A stretch of DNA of 64,000 bases from Actibacterium atlanticum (GTDB lineage: Bacteria > Pseudomonadota > Alphaproteobacteria > Rhodobacterales > Rhodobacteraceae): the NCBI RefSeq assembly GCF_000671395.1, contig NZ_AQQY01000001.1:434001-498000 (forward strand). Reading direction: 5' to 3'. The notes beneath the pieces were generated by a model. It saw nothing but the letters and a program-made list of their open reading frames with translations, searched no databases and was not told the origin of the DNA. Below, in pieces: positions 41,277 to 46,630 of this stretch. The translations under genes were made by a program, and so were the position numbers. Positions within the stretch are counted from its first letter, which is position 1, and each line of letters opens with the position of its first letter.

Positions 41277-45712
<4,436 letters not shown>

Positions 45713-45719
45713 CGGGTTT

Positions 45720-45768
45720 GTTCCTGTTTGTTCGCAAATGTTCTCAAAAAGTTCTTTACAAACTGTTC
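45720..45768 (+). promoter_or_regulatory. LexA (SOS) box within a row of five GTTC half-sites
   Basis: GTTC occurs at 45720, 45730, 45740, 45751 and 45765. The pair at 45740-45754 is GTTCTCAAAAAGTTC, an exact GTTC-N7-GTTC LexA box of alphaproteobacteria. The other neighbours are spaced N6, N6 and N10. The box centre is about 75 bases before the start of the 40-residue membrane protein gene. Confidence 0.75.
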
Positions 45769-45821
45769 CCAATTTGAGAACAAAGGGGCAACAAGACTGG
45801 TTAACGCAAGGAATGCCCGCC

Positions 45822-45944
45822 ATGTTGAACGATGTGAAAACTGTACTGCGCCGCTCGCCCGCAACCCTGTTGCAAGACGCTGTTGGTGCCGTTGCATTGA
45901 TCGTGATGCTGATGGCCAGCCTGCACTTGCCGTCGCTGGTCTGA
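45822..45944 (+). CDS. Probable SOS-induced small membrane protein (40 aa)
   Basis: A 40-residue frame: a basic N-terminal part MLNDVKTVLRRSPATLLQDA then one transmembrane helix VGAVALIVMLMASLHL and a short tail. AAGGA at 45808-45812 with 9 bases to the ATG at 45822 is a good ribosome site. A LexA box lies upstream and a terminator downstream (46078-46114), making a self-contained unit. By analogy with Caulobacter SidA, an SOS-induced inner-membrane division inhibitor of similar size, or TisB-like toxins, it may halt division or depolarise the membrane. Sequence similarity to either is not evident; function is inference. Confidence 0.7.
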   Translation: MLNDVKTVLRRSPATLLQDAVGAVALIVMLMASLHLPSLV

Positions 45945-46077
45945 GTTACCCTTTTCTGCCTGCGGATTTAGCCCGGGGTCTGCATCATTTGTCCCCAACG
46001 CCTGATGCGACACTGCCTGTCACCTTGGCAAAGCGTGCCTCTTGCTTTGCCCACCCCGGCCCCCGATCTGCGACTTG

Positions 46078-46114
46078 CCGCCGCCTCCTTCCCCAGGAGA
46101 GCGGCGGTTTTTTT
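46078..46114 (+). terminator. Intrinsic terminator downstream of the SOS small gene
   Basis: CCGCCGC with inner TCCT, loop, AGGA and GCGGCGG, then seven T (46108-46114). Located 134 bases after the 40-residue gene, so that transcript has a long 3' untranslated tail. It overlaps the stop codon of the convergent nifU-like gene. Confidence 0.85.
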
Positions 46115-46565
46115 AGGCGCAGGCGGCGTTCTGGGCCTGATCAAAGGCATCCAATGTGGCGTCCAGCGACAGCAAAATCGATCCATGCCGGTTGCCGTAT
46201 TCGCGTGCAGGGATCAAAACCTCAAGCTCGTCAAAGGGGGCATCCGGCACGGGGCCGTTGTCTTTGAGCATCGCTGCCAGTTGATCGCGCGCCTGCTGCA
46301 ATTGCGCGCGGCTCGCGCCAATCACGTGGCTGCCAACCACAGAAGCGGCCGCCTGACCCAAAGCACAGGCCTTCACATCCTGGGCAAAGTCTGCGACCCG
46401 CCCGTCAGCCAGGGTCAAATCCACCCGCACGGTCGAGCCACACAAAGGCGCGCGTTTGCTGGACTGGCCCATGGGCGTTTCCAGCGTTCCGATATGCGGA
46501 ATATCCGCCGCCAGCGCCAAGATTCGCGCAGAATAGAGTTTGATCAGATCGCTGTCGTCGCTCAT
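46113..46565 (-). CDS. NifU/IscU-like iron-sulfur scaffold protein
   Basis: A 150-residue protein resembling the IscU N-terminal fold: start [29 protein letters not shown] (first conserved Cys), and [20 protein letters not shown] (second conserved Cys). A third Cys is not placed as in canonical IscU, the last one being at the C-terminal tip. It may assist iron-sulfur assembly or repair. AAGGGA before the ATG at 46565 supports the start. Divergent from hisI. Confidence 0.82.
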
Positions 46566-46630
46566 GGCTTTCCCTTCTTGCGGCGTTTCTCTACATAGCG
46601 GGGCAGGTTGCAAATGCAAAGGATGCCCCG

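Follow-up and report, generated by a model that had tools for sequence, protein, structure and literature searches.

SulA is the textbook division inhibitor of the SOS response. A late step of division can also be blocked, through FtsW, by membrane proteins that the SOS response induces, as described for SidA of Caulobacter, a division inhibitor of 29 amino acids that binds FtsW (PMC4211646), and for YneA of Bacillus (PMC13396833). GTTC-N7-GTTC is the published LexA motif both in Caulobacter (PMC12700426) and, more widely, in alphaproteobacteria (PMC3323433). A study that covers Rhodobacter sphaeroides and Paracoccus denitrificans describes sites upstream of recG and states that LexA appears to regulate this gene in some alphaproteobacteria (PMC3323433). 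The main text of an in silico LexA study of Dinoroseobacter shibae makes no mention of recG (PMC6473078).

Two kinds of small RNA are also relevant. The sX13 RNA of Xanthomonas is described as a repressor of mRNAs that acts, via its C-rich loops, on G-rich sites close to the mRNA starts; it comes from the polA locus and is noncoding, and the account of it that is cited here leaves LexA control unmentioned (PMC3771888). UCCC loops have likewise been reported in RNAs of Staphylococcus aureus such as RNAIII (PMC3771888). Pos19 of R. sphaeroides is a stress-induced coding sRNA, 219 nt long, whose translated ORF measures 135-150 nt (PMC5036791). It is encoded between cxp and fadB on chromosome 2, is transcribed from an RpoE promoter and, according to the same source, has been reported only from R. 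sphaeroides strains (PMC5036791).

The gene described here lies in the chromosome of Actibacterium atlanticum (Rhodobacteraceae), in a window of 64,000 nucleotides, which is the whole stretch of DNA that was analysed. It resembles sidA in that it encodes a tiny inner-membrane protein of an alphaproteobacterium, a likeness drawn from descriptions and not from sequence comparison, and in its apparent LexA control, the operator, known here from the sequence, having the Caulobacter motif GTTC-N7-GTTC (PMC12700426). Unlike SidA, with its 29 amino acids, the protein has 40, its gene is fixed behind recG and a conserved 3' RNA is attached. The likeness of this RNA to sX13 lies in three hairpins with C-rich apical loops (PMC3771888). 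With Pos19 the gene would share a short stress-induced RNA carrying a small translated ORF in the same family; the two differ in locus and regulon (PMC5036791). What is new is the combination of a small membrane protein, very probably belonging to the SOS response, with a C-rich-loop RNA on what is predicted to be one transcript. RNAIII of S. aureus also encodes a small membrane-active peptide and thus joins such a peptide to C-rich regulatory hairpins on one transcript; it is much longer than the transcript considered here and is under quorum-sensing and not LexA control, and its relationship to the present gene is one of layout only. Literature searches, mainly of open-access papers, yielded no paper recognised as describing the small-ORF/RNA gene. 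The word 'recG' is missing from the main texts of sRNA surveys of Ruegeria pomeroyi (PMC4809877) and P. denitrificans (PMC5107571), whose supplements may list such RNAs by coordinates or locus numbers.

A small membrane protein encoded behind recG

The gene follows directly on the 3' side of recG (43622-45712, forward strand; NCBIfam equivalog, 1115.8 bits), with 109 bases between the two frames. Its ORF of 40 codons (protein P0001) occupies 45822-45944 on the forward strand, starts with ATG at 45822 and is preceded by a ribosome-binding site, AAGGAA, at 45808-45813; the sequence-only reading had called this site good, and it is graded fair here. On the other side lie a SufU/NifU-like gene on the opposite strand (46113-46619) and, after it on the forward strand, the gene for phosphoribosyl-AMP cyclohydrolase (hisI), both assigned by profile matches. 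A single search with the 40-residue protein gave one match per genome in 221 of 295 Rhodobacteraceae genomes. The loci taken for comparison number 110, made up of the 30 best (L009-L038) and 80 others from named genomes, and 103 of them are distinct. In all 103, recG lies directly upstream of the ORF, at a distance of 93-620 bases (median 112).

The frame is a real coding gene. In each of the 325 pairs formed by 26 sequences pN is lower than pS (mean pN 0.28, mean pS 0.66), these sequences being the members of the 30 best loci that remain when four with a frame other than 120 bases are left out. Six residues (T15, D19, G22, L26, L34 and P37) are invariant in the 30-row alignment. The product belongs to the small single-pass membrane type: among 93 distinct proteins the best 19-residue hydropathy is at least 1.57 (rounded minimum) in every one, and the mean for the best hydrophobic stretch is 2.1 (Kyte-Doolittle scale). 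The first 14 residues carry a net positive charge in 87 of the 93, which suggests an orientation with the N-terminus in the cytoplasm. Structure prediction with AlphaFold2 added little beyond the helix; the single-sequence model (mean pLDDT 84.5) has helices at residues 2-11 and 13-39. The 40-codon frame with one transmembrane helix that had been proposed from the sequence is thus a real gene with one hydrophobic helix.

The protein has no named relatives. Scans of 30 members found no family match in Pfam or PADLOC, and by Pfam the protein shows no homology to SulA. In the same scans NCBIfam gave merely three unrelated single-member matches at chance level (E 0.055-0.075) and PHROGs one weak single-member match (phrog_15880, E 0.0029). 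No relative was found among solved structures. The length of only 40 residues is probably the reason why no named family is matched.

Convincing matches were obtained in 4 of 289 sampled genomes of the class Alphaproteobacteria, all four of them Rhodobacteraceae; two weak matches from this sample were dropped, since the frames around them are 290 and 330 codons long. The first pass left 74 family genomes without a match, and 20 of them were inspected. A profile search recovered the ORF in seven of the 20 (E 0.005 or better, always behind recG), a diverged short hydrophobic ORF behind recG was recognised by eye in six more (L300-L303, L308 and L309), recG is present without the small ORF in four (L304-L307), and no recG match was found in three. 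Among the 15 weaker first-pass loci (L233-L247), recG is upstream in 14; in L247 the fetched stretch contains no recG, yet GTTC-N7-GTTC is kept. A mobile origin was also considered. Plasmids, phages and viral contigs contained no homolog of the small ORF, and the gene therefore looks chromosomal and vertically inherited. In L309 (G033:C34), an AT-rich stretch, the diverged short hydrophobic ORF behind recG is accompanied by a LexA-type box in reversed form (GAACATATAAGGAAC).

A LexA-type operator and its promoter

Five GTTC half-sites follow recG on the forward strand, at 45720, 45730, 45740, 45751 and 45765 (spacings N6, N6, N7 and N10), as the sequence-only reading had noted together with the one exact dyad among them. 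Three form the operator GTTC-N6-GTTC-N7-GTTC at 45730-45754, which contains this dyad, GTTC-N7-GTTC, at 45740-45754. The half-site N6 upstream of the triple (45720-45723) is kept in part of the loci, and the fifth GTTC (45765-45768) is found at the same place only in L009 and L010 among 30 loci. The last half-site of the triple abuts TTTACA (45755-45760), the likely -35 element, and 17 bases after it GAACAA (45778-45783), conserved as TGAGAACAAA, is the likely -10 region; the GAAC inside this block is a reverse half-site. The promoter is strictly conserved as GTTC(A/G)CAAATGTTCT(C/T)AAAAAGTTC. The expected transcript start, at 45782-45793 of the window (AAAGRGGCAACA or AAAAGGTCAACA), is conserved across loci as well.

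The box alone is no evidence for an operator, since the dyad is common by chance: GTTC-N7-GTTC occurs three times in the window against 1.56 expected, and genome-wide the dyad has 100 places and the reversed control 101, which is no enrichment. The genome-wide count was therefore rejected as evidence, and position and conservation were used instead. All 103 distinct homologous loci have the dyad, 98 have the triple GTTC-N6-GTTC-N7-GTTC, and 102 have GTTC-N7-GTTC-TT(T/G)A. Counted in either orientation, the N7 dyad is present in 30 of the 30 best loci (0.17 expected from dinucleotide shuffles) and in 28 of 29 divergent loci (0.19 expected), and in both sets the half-site spacings N6 and N7 are prominent. 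A GAAC-N7-GAAC box occurs in 10 of the 29 divergent loci and stands in for the usual dyad in L251, L303 and L309; judged by eye, T or C, as usual in recA and uvrA boxes, stands before GTTC in most of the GAAC-N7-GAAC boxes. Frame and boxes were thus looked for together in relatives, and both are kept behind recG in most of the family genomes examined.

Comparison with established SOS genes extends this picture. Across the same set of 30 genomes, GTTC-N7-GTTC stands ahead of every lexA and every recA (30 of 30 each) and ahead of 25 of 29 uvrA genes found. The triple has 66 places in these genomes, with 28 at the small-ORF promoter, 7 at lexA and 31 elsewhere, against 32 for the reversed control. 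One lexA site belongs to the A. atlanticum genome itself (G000:C1:327512-327536), and six of the lexA triple sites were confirmed next to lexA; the exact triple is present in only 7 of 30 lexA promoters. When 11 loci with a triple outside the small-ORF and lexA set were inspected, L198 turned out to be the lexA site of G063 and the other ten to lie within open frames. A triple that recurs in L200 and L208 (and, by its letters, in G231:C5) was discarded as an operator, being inside a conserved coding frame (..FFGVLAMFGAIAVMALAPW). The lexA operator of the family, for its part, shows GAAC-N7-GAAC in 30 of 30 promoters (L270-L299), between a TTGACA-like -35 element and the start codon; the third half-site, at N6, reads GAAC in 7 of 30 and AAAC in 15 of 30.

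The spacer of the small-ORF dyad is atypical. It is A-rich (TCAAAAA in 52 of 110 loci) and ends in A, and with a matrix built on recA and uvrA boxes it scores -5.7, against 4.2 for those boxes themselves and -4.7 for random spacers. The last spacer base is T in 45 of 55 recA/uvrA boxes and also in 29 of 30 lexA boxes; one uvrA box (L180) has the same spacer ending as the small-ORF dyad. A typical LexA-box spacer is a usual feature and not a strict requirement, and the A-tract may reflect a promoter constraint next to TTTACA, namely an upstream promoter element. The unit is very probably under LexA control, with LexA binding and induction by DNA damage predicted from the operator. The SOS control that had been claimed from the sequence is well supported by the comparison with lexA, recA and uvrA, though the dyad spacer is atypical.

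Further N7 boxes were seen elsewhere in the A. atlanticum genome. In L039 (G000:C1:642000-645000) an ORF (MSSLEHHIPAERRKG..) has such a box at its start (867-881; GTTCTATTTATGTTC); we take the ORF product to be radical-SAM-like, and the gene may be another member of the SOS response. The box at 1436-1450 of L044 (G000:C3:252000-255000; GTTCGAAAAAAGTTC) has an A-rich spacer like that of the small-ORF dyad and lies ahead of an ORF with MVKTIGNPLSW near its start, possibly by chance. N7 boxes in L043 and L047 precede an ImuB-like ORF (GTTCCTGATTTGTTC) and a UvrD-like helicase (GTTCTGCAATTGTTC), respectively, both named by eye.

A conserved structured RNA 3' of the reading frame

What had been read as a 3' tail of 134 bases is a conserved structured RNA, which occupies 45956-46114 on the forward strand and includes the terminator. 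Alignments of the 3' region give a closing helix around three hairpins, followed by the terminator. In the window the closing helix spans 45961-46072 (45961-45968 with 46065-46072, and 45973-45979 with 46053-46059) in the MFE fold, and corresponds to covarying helices 1-3. Hairpin H1 (45982-46008) has a loop with UGUCCCC, H2 (46009-46021), which has only four pairs in the window, has the loop CUGCC as part of a conserved CUGCCUGUC, and H3 (46027-46051) has a loop with UGCCUC; all three are backed by the fold, by covariation and by loop conservation. Across the loci the C-rich loops read UGUCCC (H1), CUGCCUGUC (H2) and UGCCUC (H3). The intrinsic terminator, CCGCCGCC..GGCGG followed by T7, occupies 46077-46114 and is supported by the covariation of helix 7. 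A simple consensus scan detected neither this terminator nor a promoter at the small ORF, though the terminator proposed from the sequence alone is backed by folding and conservation.

An RNA model (R1) built from 14 sequences, with the window excluded, finds the window element at 45956-46114 with 62 bits (E 5e-15). By coordinates, a model match lies behind the ORF in 67 of 70 sources, 55 of them at E 1e-9 or better; it is absent in L247, L252 and L253, and in L087, L233 and L245 it spans merely 55-80 bases. At E 0.01 the model matches the A. atlanticum genome once, behind the ORF, with 145 of 1319 first-look candidates scored. In a 55-row alignment 92.2% of cells pair, and both-side changes occur in 36 of 43 pairs, against 27.5 in shuffles and 22-26 with slid partners. 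The covariation score is 0.456, against 0.155 in shuffles (sd 0.006, 0 of 500) and 0.04-0.09 with slid partners, in an alignment (A5) that was fitted to the model, has 7 of its 55 rows in the seed and consists of related sequences. For this reason the test of folding energy matters. Computed without the terminator for 48 rows outside the seed, the core has a mean z of -3.2, with 42 of the 48 below -2; the window core has a z of -4.1 without the terminator, and the whole window element -5.6. Thus a conserved RNA fold lies 3' of the ORF.

Conservation is not confined to the stems. In H2 conservation is higher in the loop (1.06 bits) than in the stem (about 0.3 bits), and so it is in H3 (0.95 and about 0.4 bits). 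The whole loop of H1 does not rise above its stem (0.88 against 0.77-0.85), and here only the UCCC core is more conserved. Conserved apical C-rich loops on covarying stems are therefore clear for H2 and H3, and for H1 in the UCCC core only. The RNA half of the gene is conserved in ways that a mere stabiliser would not need. Nothing in Rfam reached threshold for the 3' element; the best sub-threshold match was sX13 (RF02232) at 45997-46113, and with 25.3 bits (E 0.012) the element falls short of that family's gathering score, which is 50. A test of whether the conserved 5' end of the transcript pairs with the 3' element gave no support: 8-10 bp can form in single species, yet without covariation. 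The mean energy of the 5'/3' duplexes is the same as with partners swapped (2566 of 5000 permutations reach a value as low), and a slight excess in the longest match, equalled or exceeded in 176 of 5000 permutations, was given no weight. The description of the locus as a self-contained unit encoding a small protein covers only half of the gene, since the conserved RNA structure had been missed.

A proposed transcript with two outputs

The sX13-like loops, taken with the SidA and YneA type of membrane protein, suggest a damage-induced transcript with two outputs. We consider it probable that the gene is a LexA-repressed unit of this kind, which yields an inner-membrane SOS effector and an RNA that pairs with G-rich sites. 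At rest, LexA would occupy the GTTC-N7-GTTC dyad and the third half-site at N6, abutting the -35 element, and transcription would be blocked. DNA damage would lead to cleavage of LexA and hence to a short transcript of about 320-340 nt. From the 5' part of this transcript the 40-residue protein would be made, with its N-terminus in the cytoplasm and one helix in the inner membrane. The 3' part would fold into the closing helix, the three hairpins with C-rich loops and the terminator, and would act as, or be processed into, a small RNA that pairs in trans with G-rich (Shine-Dalgarno-like) sites. That the RNA works by base pairing is a prediction toward which the balance tips slightly. The protein would serve as an SOS membrane effector, with delayed cell division as the favoured target, a prediction that we put forward tentatively. 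A role as a division block or a membrane toxin is plausible, being compatible with the size and topology of the protein and with a genome in which the SulA profile (PF03846) has no match at E 0.1.

The protein could instead be the sole product, an SOS division inhibitor or membrane toxin, and the 3' structure could merely stabilise the mRNA and shield its end. This would agree with the strong coding constraint, with a small single-pass membrane protein of the SidA kind (PMC4211646) and with the single model match in the genome, behind the ORF, among the 145 of 1319 candidates that were scored. A stabiliser needs stems, however, yet in H2 and H3 the loop, and in H1 its UCCC core, is more conserved than the stem that carries it, and this reading seems rather unlikely. 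In type I toxin-antitoxin systems of the TisB kind, a membrane peptide depolarises the membrane and is restrained by an antisense RNA or by the fold of its mRNA. A small hydrophobic peptide, a LexA-type operator and a structured mRNA would all fit such a system here; but the conserved fold follows the ORF and does not cover its start, no covariation backs a pairing between the 5' end and the 3' element, and the gene is matched once per genome at a constant site in the chromosome, with no homolog in the plasmid and phage collections searched, all of which makes a system of this kind improbable.

A further alternative concerns the regulator. If a protein other than LexA bound the GTTC repeats, the unit would stand outside the SOS response, and both the atypical spacer and the conservation of GTTC(A/G)CAAATGTTCT(C/T)AAAAAGTTC, which exceeds the needs of the half-sites, could be read in this way. 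Against this, the half-sites and their N7 spacing do not differ from those at lexA, recA and uvrA, 7 of 30 lexA promoters carry the triple too, and most of the GAAC-N7-GAAC boxes in 10 of 29 divergent loci, read by eye on the other strand, have the usual T or C before the second GTTC; the A-rich spacer, moreover, may be an upstream promoter element. A regulator other than LexA is therefore very improbable.

A LexA-repressed transcript that gives both a membrane protein and a pairing RNA remains the preferred reading. In its widest form, which is possible though doubtful, the gene would be a family-wide SOS dual-function RNA with an RNAIII-like layout, in which a division-halting peptide is joined to a C-rich-loop RNA that reprograms mRNA translation after damage. 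For the Rhodobacteraceae, the gene provides a candidate SOS effector at a fixed place in most of the examined genomes of one large family, and the attached RNA, parts of whose loops are conserved along with the stems, suggests a post-transcriptional arm of the family's SOS response as well.
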